DNA of 44,163 nucleotides from contig NZ_AFPM01000320.1 of the NCBI RefSeq assembly GCF_000220565.1, positions 1-44,163 of the forward strand, in the 5' to 3' direction. Within the stretch, counting starts at the first letter, position 1. Each line of letters begins with the position of its first letter. The stretch comes from Oceanicola sp. S124 (lineage in GTDB: Bacteria > Pseudomonadota > Alphaproteobacteria > Rhodobacterales > Rhodobacteraceae). Made by a program: the position numbers and the translations under genes. The notes under the pieces are model-generated. The model ran no database searches. It saw only the letters and a program-made list of their open reading frames with translations, and was not told the origin of the DNA. Shown here in pieces: positions 19,416 through 44,163 of the stretch.

Positions 19416-19466
19416 GCCTTTCGCCTCTGGCGGAACGACCTACGGCAAGATGAAAGGGTTGGTCCG

Positions 19467-22654: not shown

Positions 22655-23201
22655 CCTGATGCTGACTGCCCGCAATGCCCTGCCGCAGGGCGAGGTCCGG
22701 ACCCTTGCGGGGACCCGGATCGAGGTGCTTGCGATGCGCCGCCTGACCTCGCTGATGCCGGGGCGCGATGCCGCACCGCTGAGGCAGGCGCTGAAGAAGC
22801 ACCACGGTCTTGTGTTGCCTGAGCCGGGCCAATGCAGCCGCTTCGGTGAGGCGGAATGCCTCTGGTTCGGGCGCGACCAGTACTTGCTGATCGGAGAGCC
22901 GCCCTCTCCGCTGCTTGCTGGCACGGCGACGATGACCGACCAGTCCGACGCCTGGACCTCGGTGCTGCTGGAGGGGCCGCTGGCGCGGGCCGTGCTGGCC
23001 CGGCTGACCCCGCTGGACCTGCGTGACCGGGCGTTGCCCGAAGGCGCCAGTGCACGCAGCGAAATTGCCCACATGCAGGGTGCGCTGACCCGCGTGACGC
23101 CGGATGGCTATCGGCTGATGGTCTTCCGCTCGATGGCCGAGACGCTGCTGCGCGCGCTGCGCGAGACGCTGGAGACGGTCGCGGCGCGACAGGCGCACTG
23201 A
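22647..23201 (+). CDS. soxG: sarcosine oxidase subunit gamma
   Basis: This 184-residue subunit of heterotetrameric sarcosine oxidase belongs to the GcvT-like gamma family. Features include LWFGRDQYLLIG, the VLLEGPLARAVLARL stretch and a C-terminal YRLMVFRSMAETLLRALRE, which resemble SoxG. It starts with GTG at 22647, which overlaps the soxA stop at 22652-22654, with GGGGGAGAGA upstream. It completes the soxBDAG operon. dnaG begins 83 bases later and has its own function, so read-through is possible but not needed. Confidence 0.93.
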   Translation: MADLMLTARNALPQGEVRTLAGTRIEVLAMRRLTSLMPGRDAAPLRQALKKHHGLVLPEPGQCSRFGEAECLWFGRDQYLLIGEPPSPLLAGTATMTDQSDAWTSVLLEGPLARAVLARLTPLDLRDRALPEGASARSEIAHMQGALTRVTPDGYRLMVFRSMAETLLRALRETLETVAARQAH

Positions 23202-29310: not shown

Positions 29311-29365
29311 CTGTCCGTGCGGTACAGCAAAGCTGTCACCCCTCTGTCGGAAAACTGTCACGCGG
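29311..29365 (+). promoter_or_regulatory. PHO box with phased 11-base units upstream of the AfuA-like gene
   Basis: CTGTC occurs at 29311, 29333, 29344 and 29355. All are in phase at multiples of 11 bases, and the last three units are CTGTCACCCCT, CTGTCGGAAAA and CTGTCACGCGG. This closely fits PhoB sites (CTGTCAT-type 11-base repeats), in the same orientation as the downstream gene. A CTAACC at 29371-29376 may be the -10. Confidence 0.8.
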
Positions 29366-29466
29366 CGACGCTAACCCGGCGCAAGGCCCCTGTGGCCCAC
29401 CCGCCCGTCCGGCAAGGCTCCACTCCCCAGCCGGTCCAGTTTCAGACAGATGATCGGATGACGCCC

Positions 29467-30444
29467 ATGAAACGCGCCCTCACTCTCGCCGCCGCCCTTT
29501 CGCTGACCACCACCGCCGCGCTCGCCGATGTCTCGGGCAAGCTGGTGCTCTATACCAGCCAGCCCAATGCCGATGCGCAGCAGACCGTCGATGCCTTCAA
29601 GGTCGAATACCCCGAGGTCGAGGTCGAATGGTTCCGCGAAGGCACCACCAAGGTCATGGCCAAGCTGGCCGCCGAATTCGAAGCCGGAGCGCCGCAGCCC
29701 GACGTGCTGCTGATCGCCGACAGCGTCACCATGGAGGGTCTGAAGGCCGAAGGCCGCCTGATGGCCTATGCCGATGCCGATACCTCGGCCTACGAGGCCG
29801 GCGTCATGGATCCCGAGGGCTACTGGTTCTCGACCAAGCTGATCACCACCGGCATCATGTACAACACCGAGGCGCCGCTGCAGCCGACCTCCTACAAGGA
29901 CCTGCTGAAGCCCGAGGCCAAGGACATGCTGGCCATGCCCTCGCCGCTGACCTCGGGCGCTGCGACCATCCACATGGCCGCGCTGACCTCGAACCCGGAC
30001 CTGGGCTGGGACTTCTATGAAGGCCTCGCCGCCCAGGGGGCCAACCCACAGGGCGGCAACGGCGGCGTCTACAAGGCCATCGCCGGCGGAGAGAAGCTCT
30101 ATGGATTCGTCGTCGACTACCTGCCGATCCGCGAAGCGGTGAAGGGCGCCCCCGTCGCCTTCGTCTTCCCCGAAGAGGGCGTCTCGGCGGTGACGGAACC
30201 TGCCGCGATCCTGTCGAGCGCGCAGAACCCCGACGCGGCCAGGGCCTTCATCGACTTCCTGATCTCCGAGAAGGGCCAGCAGCTGACCGCCGACATGGGC
30301 TATCTGCCCGCCCATCCCGGTGTCGCCGCGCCCGAGGGCTTCCCCGCGCGCGACGCGATCAAGCTGATGGACTTCGATCCGGCCACCGCCCTGGCCGACG
30401 ACATGGAGAACAAGGAACGCTTCCTCTCGATCTTCGGCGGCTGA
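29467..30444 (+). CDS. ABC transporter substrate-binding protein, AfuA/Fbp-like
   Basis: The protein of about 325 residues has a Sec signal peptide (MKRALTLAAALSLTTTAALA-D) and an extracellular solute-binding class fold: LVLYTSQPNADAQQTVDAFK, then VMAKLAAEFEAGAPQPDVLLIAD, then PSPLTSGAATIHMA. It is annotated iron(III)-type by resemblance, but the paired C-terminal tyrosines that bind ferric ion in FbpA are not evident (LYGFVVDYLPIREA). A PHO box precedes it, and AfuA homologues are known to bind sugar phosphates, so an organophosphate ligand is plausible. ATG 29467 is chosen; ATG 29458 adds three residues. The permease follows 3 bases later. Confidence 0.8.
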   Translation: MKRALTLAAALSLTTTAALADVSGKLVLYTSQPNADAQQTVDAFKVEYPEVEVEWFREGTTKVMAKLAAEFEAGAPQPDVLLIADSVTMEGLKAEGRLMAYADADTSAYEAGVMDPEGYWFSTKLITTGIMYNTEAPLQPTSYKDLLKPEAKDMLAMPSPLTSGAATIHMAALTSNPDLGWDFYEGLAAQGANPQGGNGGVYKAIAGGEKLYGFVVDYLPIREAVKGAPVAFVFPEEGVSAVTEPAAILSSAQNPDAARAFIDFLISEKGQQLTADMGYLPAHPGVAAPEGFPARDAIKLMDFDPATALADDMENKERFLSIFGG

Positions 30445-30447
30445 CCC

Positions 30448-32154
30448 TTGCACCTCAAGCGACTGCTGCGCGGCGAGCCCCTGGTGCTCGCCGCGCTTTG
30501 CCTTCTCTGCCTTCTGCTCTTCGCGCTGCCCCTCGGGCTGCTGTTCCGCATCGGCCTGACCGAGGACGGCCTGCCCAGCCTCACGCCGCTGCTCGAGGCG
30601 GTGGCCGCCCGTTCGGTCCGCGTGGCGCTTTGGAACTCGCTGGAAAGCGCGATGATCTCGGCCCTTGGCGCCTTGCTGATCGGCACGGCCATGGCGCTGG
30701 CCATCGGGCTGAGCGACCTGCGTGCCAAGGGGGTGTTCGTCTTCGTGCTGCTGCTGCCAATGATGATCCCGCCCCATGTCACGGCCATTGCCTGGGTGCA
30801 GGCGCTCGGGCCCGCTTCACCGGTGCTGCAGGCGCTCGGGCTGGCGCCGCCGGTCGGCGCGACCCATCCGCTCTATTCCGCCGCCGGTGTCTGGCTGCTG
30901 CTGACGCTGCAACATGCGCCGCTGGTCTTCCTTGTCGTGCTGGCCGCCCTGCGCGCCCTACCGCGCGAGATGTCCGAGGCCGCGCGGATCGCCGGCGCCC
31001 GCCCGCTGCGCCTGCTGTCGCGGGTGCTGCTGCCGCTGCTGGCGCCTTCGCTGCTGGCGGGCTTCGCGCTGGCCTTCGTCTCGGCGCTCGGCAATTTCGG
31101 CATTCCGGCCCTGCTGGGGATCCCGGCGCGCTACACCACCCTGCCGGTGCTGATCTGGCGACGCCTGTCCAGCTTCGGCCCCTCGGTGCTGCGCGACGTG
31201 GCGGTGATCTCGGTCCTGCTGGCGGTGGTGGCGGTTCTGGCGATCTGGCTGCAGAGCGTGCTGCAACGGCGCGCCCGAGCCCAGGTGATCGGCCCGCCCC
31301 AGGCCAGCCTGCGCATCGCGCTTGGCCGCTGGCGGCTCTGGGTGACGGCGGCGCTGGTGCTCTACGCCGTGGCGACGCTGGTGCTGCCGCTGACCTCGCT
31401 GGTGGCGACGGCGCTTGTGCCGACCTATGGAGTCAAGCTGACCCTCGCGACCCTGACCTGGGACAACTTCGCCGAGGTGCTGCTGCGCCAGGGCGTGACC
31501 CTGCGCGCCTTCCTCAACTCGACCGTGACGGCAGGCGGCGCGGCGCTGGTGCTGGCCGGGCTCGCCTGCCTGCTGGCCTACTTCCTGACCGCGCGCAGCC
31601 GGGGCGCGCGCCGGGTCTCGGGCGGCATCGCCACCCTGGCCGAGGTCAGCTACGCGGTGCCCGGCCTGGTGATCTCGATCGCCTTCATCCTGGCCTTCCT
31701 GCGGCCGCTGCCGGGGCTGGGGGTGTCGCTCTACAACACGCTCTGGATCATCGCGCTGGCCTATCTGACGGCCTTCTTCTCGGTTGCGCTGAAGCCGGTG
31801 GCGGCGGCCTATGGCCAGCTCGATCCGTCGCTGGACGATGCGGCGCGGGTCTCGGGGGCGGGGTTCGGGCGGCGGATGTGGCGGATCTTCCTGCCGCTGG
31901 TGGCCCCGGCGGCCGGATCCGGGGCGATCCTGGTCTTCCTGACCGCCTATAACGAGATCACCGTCTCGGCCCTGCTCTGGTCGACGGGGAACGAGACCAT
32001 CGGCACCACGATCTTCAACTACGAGGACGGAGGCTACACCGTGCTGGCCGCCGCCATGGCCAGCGTGACGGTGGCCGCGACCATTGGGCTGATGGTGGCG
32101 CTGGACCTGCTGGGGCGGCGGTTGCCGCCGGGCGTGGTGCCCTGGCGGATCTGA
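30448..32154 (+). CDS. ABC transporter permease, two fused permease domains (AfuB/FbpB-like)
   Basis: This 568-residue inner-membrane protein has about 12 hydrophobic segments in two halves. Each half has an EAA-type cytoplasmic loop that contacts the ATPase: SEAARIAGARPLRLLSRVLLP, then later DDAARVSGAGFGRRMWRIFLP. Such fused permeases are usual in the FbpB/AfuB group. The start is TTG at 30448, right after the binding-protein stop (TGA 30442-30444), so translation is coupled; the Shine-Dalgarno is weak. No ATP-binding gene follows: next are a REP-like repeat and the minus-strand hyuB. The ATPase must be encoded elsewhere or be borrowed. Confidence 0.85.
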   Translation: MHLKRLLRGEPLVLAALCLLCLLLFALPLGLLFRIGLTEDGLPSLTPLLEAVAARSVRVALWNSLESAMISALGALLIGTAMALAIGLSDLRAKGVFVFVLLLPMMIPPHVTAIAWVQALGPASPVLQALGLAPPVGATHPLYSAAGVWLLLTLQHAPLVFLVVLAALRALPREMSEAARIAGARPLRLLSRVLLPLLAPSLLAGFALAFVSALGNFGIPALLGIPARYTTLPVLIWRRLSSFGPSVLRDVAVISVLLAVVAVLAIWLQSVLQRRARAQVIGPPQASLRIALGRWRLWVTAALVLYAVATLVLPLTSLVATALVPTYGVKLTLATLTWDNFAEVLLRQGVTLRAFLNSTVTAGGAALVLAGLACLLAYFLTARSRGARRVSGGIATLAEVSYAVPGLVISIAFILAFLRPLPGLGVSLYNTLWIIALAYLTAFFSVALKPVAAAYGQLDPSLDDAARVSGAGFGRRMWRIFLPLVAPAAGSGAILVFLTAYNEITVSALLWSTGNETIGTTIFNYEDGGYTVLAAAMASVTVAATIGLMVALDLLGRRLPPGVVPWRI

Positions 32155-32314: not shown

Positions 32315-34048
32315 TCAGGCGCCGCGCAGCGTCCCGGTTGCCGCCCGGTCGACACCGCCGGCCGTGACGACCACCCCGAAGAGCTCTGCCGCCTGCTCCG
32401 CCGTGTAGCGCCCGAGGCGGACATCCTCGGCCACCGCCGCCGGGTCGCGTTGCATCGGATCGCCGTAGCCGCCACCGCCGGGGGTGCGCACATGCACCAC
32501 GTCGCCTGGGGCCAGGGGGATGTCCTGCTCCTTGCTGAGATGGGGTGGCACATGGACCGTGCCATCGCGGATCACCTGCACCTTGTTCACCGTGCCGTCC
32601 CGGCCGCCAAGCGCGCCGAGCGGACCGGTGCGGCCGTGATCCATGACGAAGCTGGCCCGCGCCTCGCCGCGCCGCAACTCGACCGCGTAGTCCAGCCCGA
32701 AGCCGCCCCGGTGCAGCCCCGCCCCGCCCGAGCCCTCGTGCAGGGCGTAGTGGTGATAGAGCACCGGGAACTGCGCCTCCATGATCTCGACCGGCGGCGC
32801 CTTCGAGATGCCGATGGTCGAACAGCCGTTCGACAGCCCGTCATGATCGGCATTGCCGCCGTAGCCGCCGCCCGAGATCTGGTACATGACGAAATCGCGC
32901 CCCTTTTCGGGGTCGTGCCCGCCAAGGGCGAAGTTGCCCGAGCTGCCCGCCGGTGCCGCCGTCACCCGGTCGGGCAGGGCGGGGGCGAGGGCGGCAAAGA
33001 CCGCCTCGGCGATGCGCTGGCTGACCTCGGCGGCGCAGCCCGAGACCGGGCGCGGGTAATGGGCGTCTAGGAAGGTGCCCTCGTAGCCCGTGACCTGCAG
33101 CGGCTCGAAGGCCCCGGCCGAGATCGGCACCTCGGGGAAGATATGCCGCATCGCCAGGTAGACCGAGCTGAGCGTCGTGGCGAGGACCGAGTTCATCGGC
33201 CCGGTGCAGGGCGCGGAAGAACCGGTGAAATCGAAGCTCAGGCTGTCGCCGGTCCGGGTGACCGAGAGGCGAATCTCCAGCGGGGTATCGACCACGCCGT
33301 CGCTGTCGATCCAGGCCGAGGCCGCATGGGTGCCCTCGGGGATCTGCGCCACGTAGCTGCGCATCTGCGCCGCCGCCCGGGCGCGCAGTTCGGAAATGGC
33401 CTCGGCGACCACGGCGTCGCCGTAGCGGTCGAGCAGCTGGTTCAGGCGGTCCTCGCCGACCTTCAGCGCCGCCGCCTGGGCCTGGACGTCTCCGATGCGC
33501 TGATCGGCGACACGGATGTTCGAACAGATGATCTGGTAGATCTCCTGGTCCAGCACGCCCTCCTTGAACAGCCGCACCGGGGGCAGGCGCAGCCCCTCCT
33601 GTTCCACCGAGGTGGCCGAGGCAGAGAAGCCGCCGGGCACCGCGCCGCCGGTGTCGGGCCAGTGGCCGGTGTTGGAGAGCCAGCAGAAGATTTCGCCGTC
33701 ACGGTAGTAGGGCCGGGCAAAGCGCACATCCATCAGGTGGGTGCCGCCCAGGTAGGGGTCGTTGACGATGTAGATGTCACCCGGCTTCGGGGCCGGGGTC
33801 ACGCCATCGCGGATCCGCTCTACCAGCACGCGGGTCGAATGCTGCATGGTGCCGACGAAGACCGGCAGGCCCTGGTTGCCCTGGGCGATCAGCGATCCGT
33901 CCTCGGCGGAATAGATCCCGTCCGAGCGGTCGTTGGCCTCGGCGATCACCGGCGAGAAGGCGGCGCGCGAGAAGGAGAGGTCCATCTCGTCGCAGACCTG
34001 TTGCAGGCCCGCCTGGATGACCGAGAGGGTGATGGGGTCGATGCTCAT
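32315..34048 (-). CDS. hyuB: hydantoinase B/oxoprolinase subunit
   Basis: This 577-residue member of the HyuB family is one subunit of ATP-dependent cyclic-amide hydrolases (N-methylhydantoinase, 5-oxoprolinase, caprolactamase) or related carboxylases. Hallmarks are the N-terminal DPITLSVIQAGLQQVCDEMD, FSPVIAEANDRSDGIYSAEDG, YIVNDPYLGGTHLMDV, FDFTGSSAPCTGPMNS and GGGGYGDP near the C-terminus. Length is normal (about 550-600). It follows hyuA on the minus strand after a 133-base gap that contains a dispersed repeat (34093-34126). The neighbouring transporter and 6-hydroxynicotinate reductase-like gene suggest a lactam-type substrate, but specificity cannot be read from sequence. Confidence 0.9.
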   Translation of the reverse strand: MSIDPITLSVIQAGLQQVCDEMDLSFSRAAFSPVIAEANDRSDGIYSAEDGSLIAQGNQGLPVFVGTMQHSTRVLVERIRDGVTPAPKPGDIYIVNDPYLGGTHLMDVRFARPYYRDGEIFCWLSNTGHWPDTGGAVPGGFSASATSVEQEGLRLPPVRLFKEGVLDQEIYQIICSNIRVADQRIGDVQAQAAALKVGEDRLNQLLDRYGDAVVAEAISELRARAAAQMRSYVAQIPEGTHAASAWIDSDGVVDTPLEIRLSVTRTGDSLSFDFTGSSAPCTGPMNSVLATTLSSVYLAMRHIFPEVPISAGAFEPLQVTGYEGTFLDAHYPRPVSGCAAEVSQRIAEAVFAALAPALPDRVTAAPAGSSGNFALGGHDPEKGRDFVMYQISGGGYGGNADHDGLSNGCSTIGISKAPPVEIMEAQFPVLYHHYALHEGSGGAGLHRGGFGLDYAVELRRGEARASFVMDHGRTGPLGALGGRDGTVNKVQVIRDGTVHVPPHLSKEQDIPLAPGDVVHVRTPGGGGYGDPMQRDPAAVAEDVRLGRYTAEQAAELFGVVVTAGGVDRAATGTLRGA

Positions 34049-34092
34049 CTGGGGGTCTCCTTGGCAGGTGGTGTATCGCCCCGGGGGGCGAT

Positions 34093-34126
34093 GCCTCTGG
34101 CGGCAGTATTTTCAGCCATCGGATAG
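34093..34126 (+). repeat. third copy of the 34-base dispersed repeat, between hyuA and hyuB
   Basis: The unit begins GCCTCTGGCGGCAGTATTTT and ends CAGCCATCGGATAG. It matches the inverted unit at 4192-4225 at 29 of 34 positions and shares CAGTATTTTCAGCC with 4134-4157. It sits within the hyuA-hyuB gap. A GGGGC-AGC-GCCCC hairpin follows at 34133-34145. Confidence 0.7.
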
Positions 34127-34181
34127 GGCAGGGGGGCAGCGCCCCGGGGGCGGATCTGGCGCGTGGTCGCGAGGGGCGCCT

Positions 34182-36233
34182 TCATTGCGCGGCCCCCACG
34201 TGGATCAGGATGTTGCCGATGGCATCGGTGGTGACGCAGTCGCCGGGCGGGACGAGGATGGTGGTGTCCATCTGCTCGAGGATGGCCGGGCCGTCGAAGC
34301 TGGCGTCTGCCGGCAGCAGGTCGCGCTGGTAGAGCGGTGTTTCATGGGGCTGGCCGTCGAAGATCACGGGCCGGGTGGCACGCAGGGCCTCGGGCAGGGT
34401 CGCCTTGCGCTGCTCGGCGGGGATCAGGCGGGCGGGGTCCAGCGCGTTGCGGGTGCCGATGACCGAGGTATTGGCATTGACCACCGCCGCGCGGATCGTG
34501 TCGAGGCGGACGTGGAAGCGGTTCCAGTAGACCTCCTCGAAGGCGGCCTGAAGCGCCTCGCGGGTGATCTGCGGGCCGTCCAGCTCGACCCGCAGCAGGT
34601 GGGTCTGGCCGATGAACTGCATGTCGAGGGAATGCAGGACGCGGGTCTCGGTGATTTCGACCTTCTCGCGACCGATCAAGGCCCGGCCCTCTTCGGCCTG
34701 TTCAGTGAGGATCTGCGCGAGGCTGTCCATGTCCAGTGTGTCGAGCGGCTGGCTGACCGTTCGGGTGAAGTCGTGGCGCAGATCGGCGACGAGGCAGCCG
34801 AGCGCATTGGTGATGCCGGGCCGGGCCGGGGTGAGCACCGTCGGCACCCCGAGTTCTCGCGCCAGCGAGGCGGCGTGCAAGGGACCCGCGCCGCCGAAGG
34901 CGAAAAGCGCGAAGTCCCGCGGATCGGCCCCGAGCGAGACCGAGACCATGCGGATCGCCCCGGCCATCTTGACGTTGGCCAGCTGGATCACCGCCTCGGC
35001 GGCCTGTTCCGGCGTCAGGCCCAGGGGGTCGCCCAGCTTCTTTGCAAAGATGTCCCGCACGGTTTGCAAAGTGACGCCGCCCTCGACGGACTTCAGCCGC
35101 GCGGGGTCGAGGCGGCCAAGCAGCAGGTTGGCATCCGAAATCGTCGGCTCTTGCCCGCCGCGCCCGTAGCAGATCGGGCCGGGGGTGGCGCCGGCGCTCT
35201 CGGGGCCGACCTCCAGCAGGCCCGCCGCATTGACCCGCGCGATCGAACCGCCCCCGGCGCCGACGGTGCGCACGTCGACCATCGGCACGTGGATCGGCAT
35301 GGCGTATTCGACCTCGATCTCGTTGGAGACCGCGGGCTGGGCATTGCGGATCAGCGCCACGTCGGTCGAGGTGCCGCCCATGTCGTAGGTCAGCAGGTCC
35401 GGGATCCCGGCGGCGCGGCCGGTGAAGGCAGCGGCCATGACGCCGGAGGCGGGGCCGGACATGACCGTGCGGGCCGCCTCTTCGGCGACGCGGCGGGCCG
35501 AGACCATGCCGCCATTGCCGTTCATCACCAAGAGCTCGCCCGCATAGCCGCCGCGTTCCAGCGAGCCGGCGAGGTTCTGGACATAGAGGTCGAGGATCGG
35601 CTGCACCGAGGCATTGACCGCCGCCGTCACGCCGCGTTCGTACTCGCGGCTTTCCGACAGCAGGGCATGGCCGAGGGTGACATAGGGATTGGGCCAGACC
35701 TCGCGCAGGATCTCTCCGGCGCGCAGCTCATGGGCGGGGTTGCGGTAGGCGTGCAGGAAATGGACCACCAGCGCCGTGCATCCGAGGTCGAGCAGCTTCT
35801 GCGCCGCCGCGCGCAGGGCGTCCTCGTCCAGAGGGATGATCACGCGGCCTTCGGCATCCATCCTCTCGGGCACTTCAAGGCGCAGGTCGCGGGGGATGAG
35901 GGGGCGGAAATCACCTTTCATCCCATAGGCTTGCGGGCGGGTGCGACGACCCAGCTCGAGCACGTCACGGAAGCCCCTGGTGGTGATGATCCCGGTCCGC
36001 GCCAGCTTGCGTTCGAGCACCGCGTTGGTTGTTGTCGTGGTACCATGCACGATCAGCGCGGTGCCGGGCAGGTCGGCCTCGGCCTCGGCCACGGCGTTCA
36101 TCACCCCGCGCGACTGGTCGTCCAGCGTCGAGGGCACCTTGGCGATGCGCACCTCTCCGGTTGCCGGATCCATCAGGATCAGGTCGGTAAAGGTGCCGCC
36201 TACGTCACAGCCGATGACCTGTCCGGTTTCCAT
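34182..36233 (-). CDS. hyuA: hydantoinase A/oxoprolinase subunit
   Basis: The protein of about 683 residues is the ATP-binding partner of HyuB. The ASKHA phosphate loop CDVGGTFTDLIL is near residues 8-19, with DMGGTSTDVALI and AFGGAGPLHA further on. HyuAB enzymes phosphorylate and open cyclic amides. I place the start at ATG 36231-36233, preceded by GGGGGAG; the open frame runs back to 36641 but is only a shadow of a plus-strand membrane-protein gene. A palindromic CATTTGTGTGCAAATG at 36265-36280 lies in its promoter. It starts the hyuA-hyuB operon, divergent from a membrane-protein gene. Confidence 0.92.
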   Translation of the reverse strand: METGQVIGCDVGGTFTDLILMDPATGEVRIAKVPSTLDDQSRGVMNAVAEAEADLPGTALIVHGTTTTTNAVLERKLARTGIITTRGFRDVLELGRRTRPQAYGMKGDFRPLIPRDLRLEVPERMDAEGRVIIPLDEDALRAAAQKLLDLGCTALVVHFLHAYRNPAHELRAGEILREVWPNPYVTLGHALLSESREYERGVTAAVNASVQPILDLYVQNLAGSLERGGYAGELLVMNGNGGMVSARRVAEEAARTVMSGPASGVMAAAFTGRAAGIPDLLTYDMGGTSTDVALIRNAQPAVSNEIEVEYAMPIHVPMVDVRTVGAGGGSIARVNAAGLLEVGPESAGATPGPICYGRGGQEPTISDANLLLGRLDPARLKSVEGGVTLQTVRDIFAKKLGDPLGLTPEQAAEAVIQLANVKMAGAIRMVSVSLGADPRDFALFAFGGAGPLHAASLARELGVPTVLTPARPGITNALGCLVADLRHDFTRTVSQPLDTLDMDSLAQILTEQAEEGRALIGREKVEITETRVLHSLDMQFIGQTHLLRVELDGPQITREALQAAFEEVYWNRFHVRLDTIRAAVVNANTSVIGTRNALDPARLIPAEQRKATLPEALRATRPVIFDGQPHETPLYQRDLLPADASFDGPAILEQMDTTILVPPGDCVTTDAIGNILIHVGAAQ

Positions 36234-36264
36234 GGCACTCCCCCGTGTTGACCTGCTGTCGATA

Positions 36265-36280
36265 CATTTGTGTGCAAATG
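36265..36280. promoter_or_regulatory. CATTTG-TGTG-CAAATG palindrome, probable MarR operator
   Basis: The perfect 6-base arms flank TGTG, in the divergent region between hyuA and the membrane-protein gene. The same CATTTGTGTG occurs at 37896 before the ABC binding-protein gene, and CATTTGTGTA at 43674 between marR and the reductase-like gene. MarR proteins bind sites of this size; binding is inferred. Confidence 0.75.
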
Positions 36281-36421
36281 AATTTCCGATGCGGAGCGTG
36301 AAGTCAATTCCCTCTTTGCATCCCGGGCGCGGAGGGGGCAGCTTGCGTCGAGGGATGCCCAGCCCGTGACCACGCCGCCGGCGGATGGTGGGGACAGGGC
36401 GCAACAAGAGTGGGGCACGCG

Positions 36422-37804
36422 GTGAAACAGGGCAGAGGCAGGGCGGTCGCGGCAGGGATGGTGGCGGGCGGCATGGCGGTGAACCTGCCGGAAGCGGCGC
36501 TGGCCCATGCTTCGGAAGGGGCTTTCGTGCTGCTGCTGCCGACCGATGCCTACATCGCAGGCGGGGTCGCCTCGGTGGCGCTGACCGTGCTGCTGATCGC
36601 GCTCGTGCCCGAGGCGCGGGCGCACGGGATGTTCGGCGCACGTCGCATCGCCTCTGCGGGGCGGTGGCGCGGGCAGATGGTGACCTCGGCGCTCTCGGCG
36701 GTGCTCTTGCTCTGGGCGGTCTCGCAGGGGCTGGCGGGCACTCAGGATCCGGTGCGCAACCCGTTGCCGTTACTGGTCTGGAGCGGGATGTGGCTGTTCC
36801 TGCTGAGCGGACAGGGGGTGCTTGGGGACCTCTGGGGCTGGCTCAGCCCGTTCCGGATGACCGCCGCGCTGCCGGGTCTGTTCGGGCTGCGCCCCCTGCT
36901 GCGCTATCGTCCCCGCTGGGGGTACTGGCCCGCGCTGCTCGGCTACCTCGCCTTTGCCGGGGTGCTCATGGTGCACATCGCCCCGACCGACCCGGACCGG
37001 CTGGCGGTCATGGTGCTGGGATACTGGGGCTGGACGTTGGCGGGCTGCCTGCTGTTCGGCCCGCGCTGGCTGCTGCGCGGCGAGGGGCTGACCCTGCTGA
37101 TGCGCCTCTTTGCCCGCCTCGCCCCCCTGCGCCGGCAGGGCGGGGCCTGGCGCCTCGGCCTGCCCGGCTGGGAGCTGGAGCGCCGCGCCGCCCCCGCACT
37201 GTCTCTGGCGGTCTTCATGCTGCTGACCCTCGCCCTCGGCTCCTTCGACGGGCTGAACGAGACCTTTGCCTGGCTGGGCTGGATCGGGATGAACCCGCTG
37301 GAATTCACCGGCCGCTCGGCGGTCGTCGGGCAGAACCTGGCGGGCCTGCTGCTGGCCGGCCCGCTGCTGGTGGCGGTCTACGGGCTGTCCATCAAGGCCG
37401 GGCTGGTGCTGATCGACGCGGGCGGTTTCCGGCAGAGCTTCCGCGCCCTGGCCCCGGCGATCCTGCCGATCGCCTTCGGCTATCACATCGCCCACTACCT
37501 GCCCGCCGCGCTGGTCGAGGGGCAGTCCCTCTGGAACCTCTTGCGGACCCTGCTTGGTCTGCCCGAAATTCCTGTCACCACTGGCTTTTTCAACCGACAG
37601 GCCTCGGTCCGGGTGATCTGGCTCAGCCAGGCGGGGGCGGTGGTCCTGGGCCATGTCCTGGCCATCCTGATGAGCCACGCCGCGGCGATTCGCCTGCATG
37701 CCAGCCACCGGCGCGCAGCGCTCAGCCAGGCACCGCTGGCCCTGTTCATGGTGCTCTACACCCTCTTCGGCCTCTGGCTGCTGGCCTCGCCGCGTGGAGC
37801 CTGA
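36422..37804 (+). CDS. polytopic membrane protein, function unknown
   Basis: The protein of about 460 residues has a signal-like N-terminus (GRGRAVAAGMVAGGMAVNLP, cleavage possible after ALA in EAALA-HASEG) and about ten hydrophobic helices. Examples are VASVALTVLLIALVP, LPLLVWSGMWLFLLSGQG, LLLAGPLLVAVYGLSI, VLGHVLAILMSHAAAI and LALFMVLYTLFGLWLL. Conserved-looking polar spots include WGWLSPFRM, GYHIAHYLPA and several membrane His. I do not recognise a named family with certainty; it weakly recalls membrane proteins labelled fenitrothion hydrolase-like. GTG 36422 is chosen because it gives a basic n-region; GTG 36410 is also in frame. It sits between two operator-like sites, suggesting co-regulation with hyuAB and the ABC genes. 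Confidence 0.65.
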   Translation: MKQGRGRAVAAGMVAGGMAVNLPEAALAHASEGAFVLLLPTDAYIAGGVASVALTVLLIALVPEARAHGMFGARRIASAGRWRGQMVTSALSAVLLLWAVSQGLAGTQDPVRNPLPLLVWSGMWLFLLSGQGVLGDLWGWLSPFRMTAALPGLFGLRPLLRYRPRWGYWPALLGYLAFAGVLMVHIAPTDPDRLAVMVLGYWGWTLAGCLLFGPRWLLRGEGLTLLMRLFARLAPLRRQGGAWRLGLPGWELERRAAPALSLAVFMLLTLALGSFDGLNETFAWLGWIGMNPLEFTGRSAVVGQNLAGLLLAGPLLVAVYGLSIKAGLVLIDAGGFRQSFRALAPAILPIAFGYHIAHYLPAALVEGQSLWNLLRTLLGLPEIPVTTGFFNRQASVRVIWLSQAGAVVLGHVLAILMSHAAAIRLHASHRRAALSQAPLALFMVLYTLFGLWLLASPRGA

Positions 37805-37895
37805 TGCGTCCCTCTATGGCTGCCCGCGTCTTGGGCAGAGCCGCCCCGGAGGGCGACAGGGAATTTCGACGAAATCGTCAAAGCACTGGACAGAT

Positions 37896-37911
37896 CATTT
37901 GTGTGCCTACA
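37896..37911. promoter_or_regulatory. CATTTGTGTG motif upstream of the ABC binding-protein gene
   Basis: CATTTGTGTGCCTACA repeats the left arm and centre of the 36265-36280 palindrome; the right arm is degenerate. It lies about 67 bases before the binding-protein start and may be the promoter control site of the transporter operon. Confidence 0.6.
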
Positions 37912-37977
37912 GACTTCGACCCTAGGGTCAGCTTAATAAGATCCAGGATAAATCCGTCTCCAACAGGGAATGTGGAC

Positions 37978-39285
37978 ATGACCGAGATACCCAGCAAGAC
38001 CAAGACAGGGCTGATCAGCCCGACCCGCCGGGGCGCGCTGAAGACGCTGGCTGCCGGCGCCGGGGCAGCCGCCACCATGCCGCTCTGGGCCCGTTACACC
38101 AGCGCGCAGAGCGCCGCGCCGATCAAGATCGGCTTCGGCAAGCACGCCACCGGCATCGGCGCTGCCTATGGCCGCTGGTACGAGCGCACCTCCGTCGCCG
38201 CCCTGGCCAAGATCAACGCCGAGGGCGGGATCAACGGCCGCCCGGTCGAGCTGGTGACCGAGGATGACGGCACCGATCCCCGCCGCGCCGCCGAGGTGCT
38301 GGAGAAATTCGCCAACCAGTCCGACTGCGATGTCGCCTTCGGCACGCTCTTCAGCCATGTCGTCGTCGGTGCCGCGCCCCGCGCCGGAGAGCTGAAGCTG
38401 CCCTATTTCGTGGTCTCCGAAGGCCACCACGTTGCCTCGGGGATGCTGAACCGCTGGACGCTGCAGCCGGGCATCACCGACGTCAAAAGCCAGATCTCGG
38501 CCATGGCGCCCTTCCTGACCGGCACGCTCGGCAAGAAGGTCACCATGATCTACCCCGACTATGCCTTCGGCTACGATCACCGTGACAACCTTGCCCCCGC
38601 CATCGAGGCGGCTGGCGGCGAAGTGGTGGCCAAGATCGCCATCCCGCCGACCGAGACCTCCTTCACCAAGTATTTCCCGCAGATCCCGCGCGATACCGAT
38701 GTCATCTACCACGTGATGATCGGCCCCGCCGTGCTGACCTTCGTCAAGGAAATGGGCGAGTTCTTCGGTCCCTCCCGCCCCGAGATCTTCGGCTTCATCG
38801 ACAGCCTCGAGGCCACCGACCTGACCTCGCCCGGACTCGAGTTCCTGGACGGCACCTACTTCTGGGAAGGCAACCCGCGCTACCTGCAGGCCGATGCGCC
38901 CGACTACGTGAAGGCTTATCGCGATGCGGTCGGGCTGGACGAGAACGGCGCCTCGGTCTCCGATCCCTCGGATGTCTCGACCTCGGCCCACATGTTCGGC
39001 TGCTGGGAGACCCTGCACATCATCAAGGCCGGCATGGAGGCGGCGGGCTACCAGTCTACCGCCGACCGCCAGAAGCTGGTCGAGGCCGTCGAGGTCATGT
39101 CGATGATGGAGGCCGGGCCGGCCCATCCCCAGGGCACCAAGATGTTCAACGGCAAGACCCACCAGGTCTTCGGGCCGCAGTACATCTCGAAGGTCGAGGG
39201 CGGCAAGCTCTCGGTGGTCAAGACCGTCCCCTACGAAGAGACGATCTACCCCGACGAGGTTGACTACACGTCGATGAGCTTCTGA
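37978..39285 (+). CDS. branched-chain amino acid-type ABC transporter substrate-binding protein (Tat-exported)
   Basis: This 435-residue periplasmic binding protein of the Leu/Ile/Val-type family (peripla_BP_6) has a twin-arginine signal peptide (PTRRGALKTLAAGAG, then SAQS-A cleavage region). The mature domain shows IKIGFGKHATGIGAAYGRWY, INAEGGINGRPVELVTEDDG and DYAFGYDHRDN, typical of this family, whose members bind amino acids, amides, urea or aromatic acids. The start is ATG 37978 with AGGGA upstream; the open frame before it overlaps the membrane-protein gene and is spurious. It leads an SBP-permease-permease-ATPase-ATPase operon. Neighbours suggest a cyclic amide or N-heterocyclic acid ligand. 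Confidence 0.88.
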   Translation: MTEIPSKTKTGLISPTRRGALKTLAAGAGAAATMPLWARYTSAQSAAPIKIGFGKHATGIGAAYGRWYERTSVAALAKINAEGGINGRPVELVTEDDGTDPRRAAEVLEKFANQSDCDVAFGTLFSHVVVGAAPRAGELKLPYFVVSEGHHVASGMLNRWTLQPGITDVKSQISAMAPFLTGTLGKKVTMIYPDYAFGYDHRDNLAPAIEAAGGEVVAKIAIPPTETSFTKYFPQIPRDTDVIYHVMIGPAVLTFVKEMGEFFGPSRPEIFGFIDSLEATDLTSPGLEFLDGTYFWEGNPRYLQADAPDYVKAYRDAVGLDENGASVSDPSDVSTSAHMFGCWETLHIIKAGMEAAGYQSTADRQKLVEAVEVMSMMEAGPAHPQGTKMFNGKTHQVFGPQYISKVEGGKLSVVKTVPYEETIYPDEVDYTSMSF

Positions 39286-39318
39286 TCCTCCGCGATCCGG
39301 GGCGGGCCGGGACGGGGT

Positions 39319-39375
39319 CGGGGGCGCAGCCCCCGGACCGCGCCCTGGCCCGCCCCCCGCGGGCGGGGCAGGGCG
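39319..39375 (+). other. two GC-rich stem-loops between the binding-protein and permease genes
   Basis: CGGGGGC-GCA-GCCCCCG (39319-39335) is followed by a longer hairpin with outer arms CGCCCTG/CAGGGCG (39341-39347, 39369-39375) and inner CCCGCC/GGCGGG. Such loops often shield the upstream mRNA so that binding protein exceeds permease. The 162-base gap has no other feature. Confidence 0.55.
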
Positions 39376-39447
39376 CCCCTCTCCGGCTTCGTGCCGCCCC
39401 TCGCGGGTGGCCGGCCGTTCCCTGAACTGTTCCCAAGTGAGAGACCG

Positions 39448-40383
39448 ATGGACTTCGGACCCTATCTTCTGCTGGCCATGTTGGAAGGCGCCGTGCTGGC
39501 GGCTGTCCTGGCGTTGATGGCCAGCGGCCTCAGCCTCGTCTTCGGGGTGATGCGCGTGGTCAACGTGGCGCATGGCGAATTCTACATGCTGGGCGCCGTG
39601 ATGGCCTGGGTGGTGACCCAGTTCCTCGCCGGTCTCGGTGGCGGGGCCGCCGTCAACTTCATCGCCGCCGCCGTGCTGGCGCCGCTGATCGTCTGCGCCA
39701 TTGCTGCCGCCGCCGATGTCACCATCCTGAAACGGCTCGACTACGACCCCGAGCGGGTCATCGTCGCCACCATCGGTCTTCTCTACGTGATCCAGCAGGC
39801 GACCCTGATGGGCTACGGCCCCGACGCCCGCCCCGTCGTCGCCCCCTTCAACCAGCGCATCGCGCTGCCCTGGTTCGAGTTCGGCGAGAACGGCTTCCAG
39901 ATGTACTATCCCTGGGGCCTGTCGACGACCTCCTACAAGCTCTTCGTGATCGTCGCCGCCGTGGTGCTGCTGTTTGCGCTGCGCCTCTTCATGACCCGCT
40001 CGCGCGCCGGTCTTGTGATGCGCGCCACCCAGCTTGACCGCGACATGGCCACCGCCTTCGGCATCCCGGTCGAGAAGGTCTACGCGCTGGTCTTCGGCGC
40101 CGGGGCGGCGCTGGCCGCCCTGGCGGGCGTGCTGATCGTGCCGATCCAGCAGGCCCATTACCTGATGGGCGGGGACGCGCTGCTGCTCAGCTTCATCGTA
40201 GTGATCATCGGTGGCCTCGGCAGTCTTGCCGGCACCGTGGTTGCCGCCGTGATCATCGGCATGTCCGACGGCATCATCTCGGTCTTCTTCACCCCGACGC
40301 TGGCCAAGATCATCGCCACCCTGGCCGTCGCGCTGGTGCTGGTCTTCCGCCCGCAGGGCCTGTTCGGAGTGAAGACCCGATGA
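39448..40383 (+). CDS. branched-chain amino acid-type ABC permease, LivH-like
   Basis: This 311-residue inner-membrane permease of the LivH family has about eight hydrophobic helices. Family features are GLSLVFGVMRVVNVAHGEFYMLGA near the N-terminus, ATIGLLYVIQQ, a cytoplasmic loop MRATQLDRDMATAFGIPVEKV, and VVIIGGLGSLAGTVVAA. The C-terminal VFRPQGLFG is typical. The start is ATG 39448 with GAGAG just upstream; the open frame extends back to 39391 through the stem-loop region and is not used. The stop overlaps the LivM-like start (ATGA at 40380-40383). Confidence 0.93.
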   Translation: MDFGPYLLLAMLEGAVLAAVLALMASGLSLVFGVMRVVNVAHGEFYMLGAVMAWVVTQFLAGLGGGAAVNFIAAAVLAPLIVCAIAAAADVTILKRLDYDPERVIVATIGLLYVIQQATLMGYGPDARPVVAPFNQRIALPWFEFGENGFQMYYPWGLSTTSYKLFVIVAAVVLLFALRLFMTRSRAGLVMRATQLDRDMATAFGIPVEKVYALVFGAGAALAALAGVLIVPIQQAHYLMGGDALLLSFIVVIIGGLGSLAGTVVAAVIIGMSDGIISVFFTPTLAKIIATLAVALVLVFRPQGLFGVKTR

Positions 40384-41318
40384 GCCGCAAGGACCTGACC
40401 CTCCACCTCGGCCTCGTCGCCCTGCTGTTCGCGCTGCATTTCATCCTGCCCGCCTATCATCACGGGATCTTTGCCCGGGTCATGGTGCTGGCGGTCTATG
40501 CCGTCGGGTACAACATCGCCTTCGGCTACACCGGCCTGCTGTCGCTGGGCCATGCGATGTTCTTTGCTGCCGGGATGTACGGCATGGGGCTGGTCTCGTA
40601 CCACTTCGGGGTTCCGGCGCTGCCTGCTTGGTTCGTCGGCGTCGCCTGCGCCGCCGCGCTGGCCTTCGTCGTCGGCCTGCTGGCCCTGCGCACCCAGGAT
40701 GTCAGCTTCATGATCGTCACGCTGATGTTCGCCCAGGCGGCCTACCTGATCATCCTCTACTTCTCCGAGGTCACCCGGGGCGATGACGGCTTCGTCATCC
40801 CCGGTGCGCTGCGCGCCATCGGTCCCTTCGACCTGTCGGACGAGGGCACCCGCTACATCGTCGCCTGGATCCTCTTCTCGACCGCGCTGCTCTTCTCGCT
40901 CTGGCTGGTGCGCCATCCCTTCGGAAGGGTCCTCGTCGCCCTGCGCGAGAACGAGGAACGCGCCCGCCTGCTGGGCTATGACACCGGGCGGCGCAAGCTG
41001 GCCTCGCTGGTCATCTCGGGCACCATCTCGGGCGCCGCGGGGGCGGCCTATGCCGGGCTCTTCGGCTATGTCGGGGGCAGCTTCGCGGGGGTGCAATATT
41101 CGATTTTCGCCCTGCTCTGGGTGCTTCTGGGCGGGGCGGGCACCGTGCTGGGCCCCTTCATCGGCACGCTCTTCATGTTCTACCTGATCGACCTCGCGAC
41201 CGAGGTGACCGAGGCCTACATGCTGATCGCCGGCGTGGTGCTGGTGCTGCTGACGCTCTTTGCGCCGCAGGGCATCGTGGGCGAGATCCGCCGCCGGCTG
41301 TGGAAGGACCTGCCATGA
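40380..41318 (+). CDS. branched-chain amino acid-type ABC permease, LivM-like
   Basis: This 312-residue permease is the partner of the LivH-like gene. Family blocks are YNIAFGYTGLLSLGHAMFFAAGMY, FMIVTLMFAQAAYLIILYFS, a loop LRENEERARLLGYDTGRRKL and LLGGAGTVLGPFIGT. The C-terminal FAPQGIVGEIRRR is typical of LivM. It has about eight to nine membrane helices. It starts in the LivH stop and ends overlapping the first ATPase start (ATGA), so the whole operon is tightly coupled. Confidence 0.93.
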   Translation: MSRKDLTLHLGLVALLFALHFILPAYHHGIFARVMVLAVYAVGYNIAFGYTGLLSLGHAMFFAAGMYGMGLVSYHFGVPALPAWFVGVACAAALAFVVGLLALRTQDVSFMIVTLMFAQAAYLIILYFSEVTRGDDGFVIPGALRAIGPFDLSDEGTRYIVAWILFSTALLFSLWLVRHPFGRVLVALRENEERARLLGYDTGRRKLASLVISGTISGAAGAAYAGLFGYVGGSFAGVQYSIFALLWVLLGGAGTVLGPFIGTLFMFYLIDLATEVTEAYMLIAGVVLVLLTLFAPQGIVGEIRRRLWKDLP

Positions 41319-42048
41319 AACAGGCAAGCGACGTGATCCTCTCGACCGAGGGGCTGGGCAAGAGCTTTGACGGGCTGCGCGCCAACAACGCCATCGACTT
41401 CACCCTGAGGAAGAACCGCGTTCATGCGCTGATCGGGCCGAACGGGGCGGGCAAGACCACCTTCGTTTCCATGCTGATCGGACGGCTGGCCCCCACCGAC
41501 GGGGCGATCTGGTTCGACGGGCAGAACGTGACCGAGATGCCCGCGCATCGCCGGGTGGCCCTGGGCATGGGCTATACCTTCCAGATCACCTCGGTCTTCA
41601 GCCGCCTGAGCTGCCACGAGAATGTCGCCCTCGCTGCCCGCCGCAAGGCCGGGCGCGGCAAGGGCGAGGTCGAGGCGGTCGTCGCCGATGCCCTCGTGCG
41701 CGTGGGCCTGGGCGAGCGGGCCGACGAGGTGGCGGGCGATCTCTCCTATGGCCACCAGCGGCTGCTCGAGATCGCCATGGGCCTGGCCTCGGCACCGCGC
41801 CTGCTGATCCTGGACGAGCCGACGCAGGGCCTGGCCGAAAGCGAGATCGCCGCCTTCAAGGCGCTGATCCGGGCGCTCTCGGCCGAGACCACGATCCTGT
41901 TGATCGAACACAACATGTCGGTGGTGATGGAGCTGGCCGACGAGATCACCGTGCTGAACTTCGGCGAGATCCTGGCCCATGGCACGGCGGCCGAGATCCA
42001 CGCCAACCCGGCGGTGCAGGCCGCCTATCTTGGAACGGAGACCGCGTG

Positions 42049-42049
<1 letters not shown>
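41315..42049 (+). CDS. ABC transporter ATP-binding protein, LivG-like
   Basis: This 244-residue ATPase has Walker A IGPNGAGKTTF near residues 44-54, the signature LSYGHQRLLEIA (the Tyr-containing variant usual in LivG) and Walker B LLILDEPTQGLAE. The H-loop is LLIEHNMSVV. It powers the two permeases for import. ATG 41315 overlaps the LivM stop and is preferred over 41300. The stop overlaps the next ATPase start (TGATG). Confidence 0.94.
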
Positions 42050-42756
<707 letters not shown>

Positions 42757-43157
42757 GGGCGCTGTGCAAACGAAGTGAGGCCGGATCCATCGGACCCGGC
42801 CCCTGAACCGTTTAACCTCCGCACCCTGCGGCGCGGCATACCCCTGAAAATCGGGGTCCGTCGGGGCGAAGGCGCCGCGGACCTTGTTGTTGCGGCCGGG
42901 TATGCTCCCGAACCGATCCTGTCTTGCTGTCCTGCCCTTTGGGGCGGTCGTCATCCGTCCGGTGCCTGCGCCTGACCGATCACACGGGAGCCTCCGGCGC
43001 CCGGCAGGCGAAAGAGTAACCGCCCGGAACCACTGGCTCCGGGCGGACCCCGTCACGGCCTCCCGACCCCCGTAGAGAGAGACCGGGGCGGAGGCCCGAC
43101 ACACACCTCGTCAATTCCTCCCCGGCGCGCATTGCCCGGGGCCTGCCAATAGGCCGA
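42757..43157. ncRNA. structured non-coding region between livF-like and marR (candidate RNA)
   Basis: No supported gene occupies these 401 bases. Several strong stem-loops line up: GGTCCG/CGGACC (42855-42883); GCCTGC/GCAGGC with GCGCC/GGCGC (42964-43009); CCGCCCGGA/TCCGGGCGG (43020-43046); and GGCCTCC/GGAGGCC with inner CCCCG/CGGGG (43057-43096). CCCCGG/CCGGGG follows near 43120-43140. I could not match it to tmRNA, RNase P, 6S, SRP or a known riboswitch. It may be an sRNA, a long terminator region or an uncharacterised structured RNA; strand is undecided. Confidence 0.4.
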
Positions 43158-43595
43158 TCAGCCCAGTTTTGCCAGCAGTGCCAGCAGGGCTTCCCGCTCG
43201 GATGCCGAGAGCGGGGCCATGGTCTCGGTCGAGATCTCGACCGCGGCGATGGCGGAGGCCTCGTAGAGGGCGCGGCCCTCGTCGGTGACGCTCAGGTAGT
43301 GGCGGCGCCGGTCGTCCGGGTCGGGCCGGGCCTCGACCAGACCGCGGGCACGCAGCCGGTCCGCCACGCCCTTGATCGTCGCCGCATCCATGGCGGTGGC
43401 CCGCCCCAGGGCGTTCTGCGACGTCGGGCCGAGCTGGCACAGCTTGGCCAGCGCGGCGAACTGTGTCGCAGTCAGCCCGGGCAGACGCTGGGCGAAGATC
43501 GCGAGATGGCGCTGGCTGGCCCGCCGGAGCAGGAAACCAACCTGCTCGTCAAGGCGGTAGCTGGCGGCGCGGGCATCCGCGAAGTCATAATGCAT
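43158..43595 (-). CDS. MarR family transcriptional regulator
   Basis: This 145-residue winged-helix regulator contains the typical FLLRRASQRHLAIFAQRLPGLTATQFAALAKL lead helices (split here across residues 20-52). The recognition region is SQNALGRATAMDAATIKGVADRLRARGLV, and the wing is DPDDRRRHYLSVTDEG. Length is normal. Close relatives of this pattern regulate aromatic or N-heterocyclic acid catabolism. It is divergent from the 6-hydroxynicotinate reductase-like gene across 194 bases holding CATTTGTGTACGAACG (43674-43689). It is the obvious candidate to bind the shared motif found at 36265 and 37896. Confidence 0.9.
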   Translation of the reverse strand: MHYDFADARAASYRLDEQVGFLLRRASQRHLAIFAQRLPGLTATQFAALAKLCQLGPTSQNALGRATAMDAATIKGVADRLRARGLVEARPDPDDRRRHYLSVTDEGRALYEASAIAAVEISTETMAPLSASEREALLALLAKLG

Positions 43596-43673
43596 CGAAA
43601 CTGATCTCTCCGGTTTTCAATCTATCGGCGACTGCGAAAGGCATTGACACCCGCGACCTGTTCGAGTCAATAC

Positions 43674-43689
43674 CATTTGTGTACGAACG
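43674..43689. promoter_or_regulatory. CATTTGTGTA motif in the marR-reductase divergent region
   Basis: CATTTGTGTACGAACG matches the 36265-36280 palindrome at the left arm and most of the centre; the right half CGAACGAA resembles CAAATGAA there and CAAACGAA at 42767-42774. It lies between the two divergent starts. Confidence 0.6.
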
Positions 43690-43789
43690 AAAATGACGTA
43701 GCGTGAAACCCGCGCAGCACGGCCTGACCTTCGACAAGGCGCGGGGATCGGGACACCACCCTGAATGTCACCCTGAAAGGATGTCGCCC

Positions 43790-44163
43790 ATGGCACCGGT
43801 AGACAAGATCAGATGCGATGCCTGCCCGGTCATGTGCTACGTGGCCGAGGGCAGGACCGGGGCCTGCGACAGATATGCCAATGAAAACGGCAGGATCGTG
43901 CGCTGCGATCCGGTTACGGTGCTGGACCGCCGCCTTGCTGCAGGGGAAGAGGTGCGCCCCTTCCTGCCCGGCGCCGAGGACTGGGACGGCAGCATGATCC
44001 CGGGCCGCGAGCTTTTCGTCTCGGGGCTGGGCGCCGGCACAACTTATCCCGATTTCAAGCCCGCCCCCTTCATCGTCTCGCGCGAGGTCGAGGGCGTGGA
44101 TACCGTCACCGTGGTGACCGAGGCGATCTATTCCTACTGCGGCGTCAAGGTGAAGATCGACAC
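43790..44163 (+). CDS. 6-hydroxynicotinate reductase-like protein, N-terminal part (partial)
   Basis: The frame is open from ATG 43790 to the window end (about 124 residues). GAAAGGA lies 8 bases upstream. The N-terminus has a cysteine cluster KIRCDACPVMC (C9, C12, C16) followed by GRTGACDRYANENGRIV (C26), as in iron-sulfur proteins labelled 6-hydroxynicotinate reductase. I recall the same opening in that family. Those enzymes reduce 6-hydroxynicotinate to a tetrahydro-6-oxonicotinate in the reductive nicotinate route. The family label is from memory, and most of the protein is outside the window. Neighbours (HyuAB, ABC importer, MarR) fit N-heterocycle or lactam catabolism. Confidence 0.65.
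   Translation, partial: MAPVDKIRCDACPVMCYVAEGRTGACDRYANENGRIVRCDPVTVLDRRLAAGEEVRPFLPGAEDWDGSMIPGRELFVSGLGAGTTYPDFKPAPFIVSREVEGVDTVTVVTEAIYSYCGVKVKID

Follow-up and report, generated by a model that had tools for sequence, protein, structure and literature searches.

Which enzyme opens the lactam ring made by reduction of 6-hydroxynicotinate, where the known ring-opening enzyme is missing, is the question raised by one end of a 44,163-nucleotide stretch of the genome of Oceanicola sp. S124 (contig NZ_AFPM01000320.1; the whole stretch is called the window here). At this end are genes for the two subunits of a HyuAB-type enzyme and, cut by the contig end, the first part of a gene for a 6-hydroxynicotinate-reductase-like Fe-S protein (HNR). 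In the nicotinate fermentation of Eubacterium barkeri, nicotinate is hydroxylated, the product is reduced by Hnr to 1,4,5,6-tetrahydro-6-oxonicotinate (THON), and the ring is then opened by enamidase. An earlier note on the window had suggested that HyuAB could open such a ring in place of enamidase. The comparisons described below indicate that the locus most likely serves nicotinate catabolism by way of THON, with the ring opened by HyuAB at the expense of ATP, a reading drawn from sequence to which we assign a probability of about 0.84.

HyuB and enamidase in genomes carrying HNR

In related loci without HyuAB, an amidohydrolase is encoded beside HNR. Its best PDB match was 2vun, an enamidase (E = 3e-107, next best 3e-5), and it was used as the enamidase query. 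HNR, HyuB, and enamidase were scored over the same 60 genomes, a set of relatives that includes the genome of the window. HNR was found in 26 of these; one, G035, was set aside, as its HNR was in fragments only and its HyuB match (62%) was interrupted. A HyuB orthologue was present in 18 of the other 25, in 17 of them at full length, with at least 79% identity and on the contig that carries HNR, and the remaining seven had enamidase at 71% identity or more. At those identity levels, neither protein was found in any of the 34 HNR-negative relatives. In G003, HyuB is cut to 153 residues (contig C7, locus L124, 3729-4190, minus strand) while the HyuA, HNR, and hydroxylase beside it are intact; this may reflect a decaying pathway or an assembly error.

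A class sample of 240 alphaproteobacterial genomes, again including that of the window, contained 38 with HNR at E ≤ 1e-50 (in two pieces in the window genome, G000, and in G063; partial in G266). HyuB was present at 63% identity or more in 25 of the 38 (partial in G099 and G261); the remaining 13 had enamidase, at 66% or above. The 202 HNR-negative genomes included two with HyuB at 61-63% (G149 and G252) and one with enamidase (G117). Both sets of HNR genomes contain G000, G036, and G042, so that their union holds 60 distinct genomes: 42 with HyuB, truncated in one, and 18 with enamidase. Among the candidates scored, no genome had both and none had neither. If kinship is ignored, a split this clean in the class sample is expected in 1 of 5.4 billion arrangements; relatives are not independent.

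A canonical enamidase beside the reductase, the finding that the earlier note had set against its own suggestion, was looked for in the window genome, and no match at E ≤ 1e-3 was obtained in this 92% complete assembly. Of the 25 HNR class genomes with HyuB, 15 have it no more than 25 kb from HNR, and in some loci HyuAB or enamidase occupies the equivalent position behind the transporter genes (G238 and G268 versus G100 and G220).

The HyuAB pairs of G149 and G252 (loci L181 and L182; about 60% identity, no HNR) adjoin the large subunit of another molybdenum hydroxylase and a gene that by eye resembles a beta-keto acid cleavage enzyme; perhaps they belong to another heterocycle route that uses the same lactamase branch. 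The enamidase orthologue of G117 (locus L183, 10004-11173, plus strand) has 77% identity.

Plasmids and the number of exchanges

HNR was also found on 26 plasmid records, 10 of which carry HyuB at 68% identity or more and the other 16 enamidase at 67% or more; none carries both, and none lacks both. All 16 plasmid records with enamidase at this level carry HNR, and one of them is a Comamonadaceae plasmid. The either-or distribution thus held in every HNR genome and plasmid record surveyed and gives comparative support to the suggestion that HyuAB takes the place of enamidase.

The exchange can be seen within otherwise similar clusters. Sulfitobacter clusters (S. pontiacus pDSM110277_c and S. 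mediterraneus P3) resemble the cluster studied here in encoding HNR, a molybdopterin hydroxylase and its FAD subunit, UPF0280, DUF1185, a MarR protein, an ABC importer, and a ferredoxin-NADP reductase, but have an amidohydrolase, an enamidase orthologue of 82-84% identity, where the window has HyuAB. A plasmid of Sagittula stellata carries the same gene set as the Sulfitobacter plasmids, but with HyuAB.

A tree of 56 HNR sequences was made by a quick method, leaving out four genomes in which HNR was split or short. On it, the HyuB/enamidase label changes at least seven times, with at least four changes forced by starred branches, and G139 (HyuB) groups with G245 (enamidase) as a fully supported sister pair. 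Seven independent pairs were obtained on all branches and four on starred branches, all four going opposite ways (p = 0.125).

On plasmid pSMED01 of Sinorhizobium medicae, HyuAB (60 and 72%) has as neighbours a DUF1185 gene (65%) and a gene for a distant PncA-type protein (locus L197, 9860-15844); no HNR was found in 12 kb of flanking sequence.

HyuAB as a lactamase-type enzyme

The ATP-binding subunit HyuA and the metal-binding subunit HyuB are encoded together, as in the ATP-dependent lactamase family HyuAB/OplAB/CapAB. When searched against the PDB, HyuB revealed as top hits the caprolactamase subunit CapB (6yra, E = 5e-75) and an N-methylhydantoinase (7hk5, 2e-71), both ahead of carboxylases (256 and 245 bits versus 129 and 80 bits), and HyuA matched the same two entries (7hk5, 1e-127; 6yra, 1e-111). 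Excerpts of the work on CapAB of Pseudomonas jessenii give the CapB metal ligands as residues 41, 99, 102, and 124 (Asp-His-Asp-His, with mutants) and the ATP-site aspartates of CapA as residues 11 and 295 (PMC8453981). In alignments of the window proteins with fetched sequences that are 50% or more identical across 450 residues or more, HyuB D40, H104, D107, and H129 align with the metal tetrad and are identical in 39 of 39 rows, while HyuA D11 (in DVGGT) and D285 (in DMGGTS), the ATP-site aspartates, are identical in 43 of 43. HyuAB nonetheless differs from CapAB itself. The subunits fall far below the NCBIfam equivalog cut-offs of 1000 bits for CapA and CapB (NF050156/NF050157; 483.2 and 312 bits), and at two aligned pocket positions HyuB has Glu37 and Phe141 where CapB has Leu38 and Tyr136, again in all 39 rows.

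The proposed ring-opening chemistry has a precedent, since OplAB of Pseudomonas putida KT2440, a member of the same family, is described in excerpts of PMC11033972 as opening the six-membered lactam delta-valerolactam with ATP; its substrate and genetic context are other than those proposed here, and the likeness is drawn from that description.

The reductase

The HNR fragment of the window is 98% identical over 126 residues to its nearest relative. The closest records that a search with it gave are a Rhodobacteraceae metagenome-assembled genome (98%) and Pseudooceanicola antarcticus (95%). The fragment matched no Pfam or NCBIfam model, and a full-length relative gave a single sub-threshold Pfam match, GCV_T_C, with no curated model above cut-off. 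The predicted structure of HNR (mean pLDDT 71.6) had no PDB match at E ≤ 0.001. We use the name 6-hydroxynicotinate reductase because public annotation of homologues does so: on the 26 plasmid records, where identity is 58-72%, 17 of the homologues bear this label, three are called hypothetical, and six are unlabelled. An excerpt of PMC3511419 reports 42% identity between the protein of Bradyrhizobiaceae SG-6C and the E. barkeri reductase. By homology and annotation, HNR probably converts 6-hydroxynicotinate to THON.

A second exchange at the hydroxylase

The hydroxylase encoded in related HNR loci matches subunits of E. barkeri nicotinate dehydrogenase (3hrd; 4e-66 and 8e-63), with aldehyde oxidoreductase scoring higher over the full length. 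An FAD-type molybdenum hydroxylase was found at 55% identity or more in 16 of the 25 HNR relatives. A NicB-like protein at 65% or more is present in exactly the other nine, among them the window genome (best match to the FAD-type enzyme just 31%), where contig C303 encodes it; it is a large subunit with MoCoBD domains and three CXXCH motifs (c-type haem), and it adjoins a NicA-like 2Fe-2S subunit. From this architecture we provisionally call the pair NicAB-like. If the assignment is right, the window genome would hold a full set of NicAB-like hydroxylase, HNR, and HyuAB. Eight of the nine NicB-like genomes are represented on the HNR tree, and as they form one clade there, the hydroxylase swap was probably one event. 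G010 has a NicB-like protein (63%) and no HNR.

Five Fer2_2 2Fe-2S proteins are encoded in the window genome, on C132, C214, C18, C303, and C144; none of the three that were scanned (C132, C18, and C303) scored above an NCBIfam cut-off. The Fer2_2 protein of C18 also adjoins, by eye, a molybdopterin-type large subunit. The survey of large subunits in the relatives covered that of C303.

The MarR regulator and an operator-like motif

The MarR protein encoded beside HNR matched PDB entry 2nnn (2e-39) and two entries of Bordetella BpsR (6pcp, 3e-27; 6pco, 5e-27), with the next best match at 1e-12. According to excerpts of PMC6837509, BpsR contacts 6-hydroxynicotinate through Tyr15, His23, Arg26, and His32. 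The equivalents in the window protein are Y13, F21, R24, and H30, so that three of the four contacts are kept and the full BpsR set is not present. Among 53 aligned rows (the window protein and 52 from related loci, including a distant second MarR), the Tyr is found in 52, the Arg in 53, and the His equivalent to His32 in 51; the His23 position holds Phe in 42, Tyr in seven, and His in four. The genes around the window protein are, unlike those of BpsR, of a reductive route. By analogy, sensing of 6-hydroxynicotinate by this protein is plausible.

The earlier note had also claimed a shared promoter motif, and this held up. The sequence CATTTGTGTNC occurs exactly three times in the window (36265, 37896, and 43674), each time in a spacer of the cluster, against 0.03 expected, and none of 100 shuffles reached three. 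The whole genome has six sites, and a reversed control had none. A rigid 16-base consensus gave, in 13 of 52 related MarR regions, a site matched by at most 1 of 30 shuffles; the motif thus drifts or is not kept everywhere. Another genomic copy, near 10122 on C132 (locus L191), overlaps the start codon of a gene for a ferredoxin-NADP reductase-like protein (FPR). This gene was considered as a member of the regulon and left out, the case being only suggestive; it adjoins genes that by eye resemble those of sulfite reduction. The remaining two copies (C56 and C323) look unrelated.

Organization of the locus

Features of the cluster are collected in Table 1. Open reading frames together with Pfam and NCBIfam matches confirmed the gene content that the earlier note had read from the window, including a complete Liv-type importer, with LivHMGF all matched in Pfam, and a Tat-exported binding protein, with TIGR01409 above its cut-off. 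Matches of the binding protein in the PDB are only distantly related and suggest no ligand. In relatives the membrane protein is conserved next to the binding protein, and its family was called in 27 of the 80 related loci.

Table 1. Genes and operator-like sites of the HyuAB/HNR cluster in the window
Feature	Position	Strand	Supporting match or remark
HyuB	32315-34048	-	Pfam PF02538 Hydantoinase_B, E = 2e-156
HyuA	34182-36236	-	Pfam Hydant_A_N, Hydantoinase_A, Hydant_A_C
Operator-like site CATTTGTGTGC	36265-36275	+	HyuA/membrane-protein spacer; part of palindrome ATTTG-TGTG-CAAAT
Polytopic membrane protein	36410-37804	+	No Pfam or NCBIfam family matched
Operator-like site	37896-37906	+	Upstream of binding protein
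Tat-type substrate-binding protein, Liv-type importer	37990-39285	+	PF13458 (Peripla_BP_6), 1e-51; TIGR01409, 19.6 bits (cut-off 16.7)
LivH permease	39448-40383	+	PF02653
LivM permease	40380-41318	+	PF02653
LivG ATPase	41315-42049	+	PF00005, PF12399
LivF ATPase	42046-42756	+	PF00005
MarR regulator, proposed 6-hydroxynicotinate sensor	43158-43595	-	PDB 2nnn, 2e-39; BpsR 6pcp, 6pco
Operator-like site CATTTGTGTAC	43674-43684	+	MarR/HNR spacer
HNR, N-terminal part of 6-hydroxynicotinate-reductase-like Fe-S protein	43781-44163	+	Cut by contig end; CxxCxxxC motif

The source is a 4.65-Mb draft genome in which the window makes up the whole of one contig, C20. The rest of HNR (residues ~217-499) opens contig C268 (positions 1-849), with about 89 residues missing in the gap. 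It is followed on C268 by genes for UPF0280, DUF1185 (PF06684), a ketopantoate-reductase-like protein, and then a TrpE-like protein. The gene order of C20 and C268 agrees with that of the uninterrupted loci L032 and L033; the two pieces were left unjoined.

Using the HNR fragment, we fetched 80 related loci with flanks limited to 10 kb or the contig ends; counts from them are lower bounds, since gene calling missed some genes and two loci received none. These loci encode a fused 2Fe-2S/molybdopterin hydroxylase (71 loci), an FAD subunit (49), DUF1185 (61), UPF0280 (56), MarR (38), Liv proteins (33-51), HyuA (17), HyuB (14), a PncA-like nicotinamidase (12), and a ferredoxin-NADP reductase-like protein (12). 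The one PncA-like protein that was scanned scored above its NCBIfam cut-off (212 versus 174 bits).

UPF0280 and DUF1185 were found with either HyuAB or enamidase and therefore do not explain the swap. A role of DUF1185 as an enamine deaminase that would make HyuAB equal to enamidase was dropped as an account of it for the same reason; the excerpts of the DUF1185 structure report (PMC2954203) propose amino-acid metabolism only.

The UPF0280 protein of the window genome (C268, 849-1739; locus L116) has a predicted structure of pLDDT 92.6 whose best PDB match is DVU1097 (2o34); ApbE-type flavin transferases follow as weak matches (E of about 1e-4 to 1e-3, TM 0.3-0.45). HNR keeps a conserved SGVT stretch (T381 in the numbering of L032) that is reminiscent of the ApbE target motif. 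Flavinylation of HNR by UPF0280 is speculation.

Elsewhere in the window, four genes at 18162-23201 (plus strand) resemble by eye a sarcosine-oxidase-type operon (soxBDAG), and directly before the cluster, at 29317-32154 (plus strand), a binding protein and permease resemble by eye an iron-type ABC importer.

Proposed pathway

We read the cluster as the probable core of an aerobic, reductive route for nicotinate. Nicotinate or 6-hydroxynicotinate would be imported by the Tat-type binding protein with LivHMGF. Judging from genome content, nicotinate would be hydroxylated to 6-hydroxynicotinate, here probably by the NicAB-like molybdenum hydroxylase of C303, and HNR would reduce 6-hydroxynicotinate to the six-membered lactam THON, as its homologues and their annotation suggest. 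The comparative evidence points to HyuAB for the following step, in which the lactim would be activated by ATP in HyuA and hydrolysed at the metal site of HyuB, replacing enamidase. The expected product is 2-(aminomethylene)glutarate, which by loss of ammonia would give 2-formylglutarate. By the example of BpsR, the MarR repressor would sense 6-hydroxynicotinate and let go of the operators in the three spacers.

The route may also be modular, with two successive enzymes replaced by others of distant or no relationship, the NicAB-like enzyme standing in for the FAD-type hydroxylase and a HyuAB dedicated to THON for enamidase, and with the reductase kept. UPF0280 would possibly flavinylate HNR, perhaps at T381; as a whole we regard this extended scheme as tentative and rather doubtful.

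Alternative explanations

Several points weigh against the opening of THON by HyuAB. The number of candidates scored per genome was limited (in the class sample, five for HyuB and eight for enamidase), so that absence means none among those scored and is not absolute, and the orthologue cut-offs were chosen after the data had been seen. The class-sample gap is wide for enamidase (66 versus 41%), but narrow for HyuB, at 63% in HNR genomes versus 61 and 63% in the HNR-negative G149 and G252. Some enamidase genomes contain HyuB paralogues of 43-45%, and a 39% relative of enamidase is present in G139, which is of the HyuB type. Independence is limited among the plasmids, as 12 of the 16 enamidase records are from Sulfitobacter, some near-identical, and on the tree, where four independent pairs on starred branches put significance out of reach. 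The MarR protein has Phe where BpsR has His23, and the NicAB-like genes showed no operator site.

HyuAB might instead be an ordinary oxoprolinase or hydantoinase that lies near nicotinate genes by chance, an unrecognised hydrolase opening THON. The family is functionally broad, and the window genome encodes three further HyuB-family proteins. HyuB is also not near HNR in 10 of the 25 class genomes, and seven of the 17 plasmid records with close HyuB (six of Sinorhizobium medicae and one of Rhizobium rhododendri, at about 72%) lack HNR on the same record, other replicons being outside the search. A chance neighbour would, however, have to alternate with enamidase in all 60 HNR genomes and all 26 HNR plasmid records without exception, and to be rare where HNR is absent (2 of 202 class genomes at 61% or more, 0 of 34 relatives at 79% or more), which we consider very improbable. 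HyuAB could also belong to the pathway but work as a carboxylase or on an intermediate formed further on, with enamidase lost because ring opening falls to some other enzyme. Acetone and acetophenone carboxylases are members of the superfamily, two plasmid records label the HyuAB pair as acetophenone carboxylase subunits, and UPF0280 and DUF1185 stand in the cluster with no step assigned; with HyuB nearer to lactamases than to carboxylases in bit score, we hold this for improbable as well.

It is unlikely, though the idea deserves some weight, that the true substrate is a related hydroxypyridine carboxylate, not nicotinate, whose ring HNR and HyuAB would still reduce and open. The clade of the window lacks the usual FAD-type hydroxylase, and HNR has neither a curated model above cut-off nor a known fold. 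Nicotinate is nevertheless favored by the BpsR-like regulators, the NicAB-like hydroxylase, the 2vun-type enamidase in sister clusters, and the nicotinamidase-like genes that 12 of the 80 loci contain, and excerpts of PMC3511419 assign such a cluster to nicotinate.

Relation to known systems

As excerpted, PMC3511419 describes HNR clusters in Azorhizobium, Bradyrhizobium, Rhodopseudomonas, and SG-6C, whose genes were located by BLAST searches starting from the E. barkeri cluster. Like the cluster studied here, those of Azorhizobium caulinodans and Bradyrhizobiaceae SG-6C belong to aerobic alphaproteobacteria with a route through THON, and they join the reductase gene with genes for steps one to three, for an ABC transporter, and for two conserved proteins of unknown function. 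The words hydantoinase and enamidase are absent from that paper. Up to ring opening, the route is thus already known in alphaproteobacteria; the enzyme proposed here for ring opening differs from the known one. Compared with the E. barkeri pathway, HyuAB is found here versus enamidase there, and the NicAB-like hydroxylase of the window genome versus the FAD-type enzyme. Among the matches listed in the open-licence literature, no paper links HyuAB to a reductive nicotinate route or describes a HyuAB enzyme with THON as substrate; hydantoinase or oxoprolinase and nicotinate terms occur together only in PMC6346535, in the excerpted context of fungal glutathione.

The proposed role would link a single branch of the large and poorly assigned HyuAB family, whose members are usually labelled hydantoinase, oxoprolinase, or acetophenone carboxylase, to a defined substrate. 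It raises the question of why ATP should be used when enamidase needs none to open the ring, and it would fill the ring-opening step for the many alphaproteobacteria that have HNR but no enamidase.

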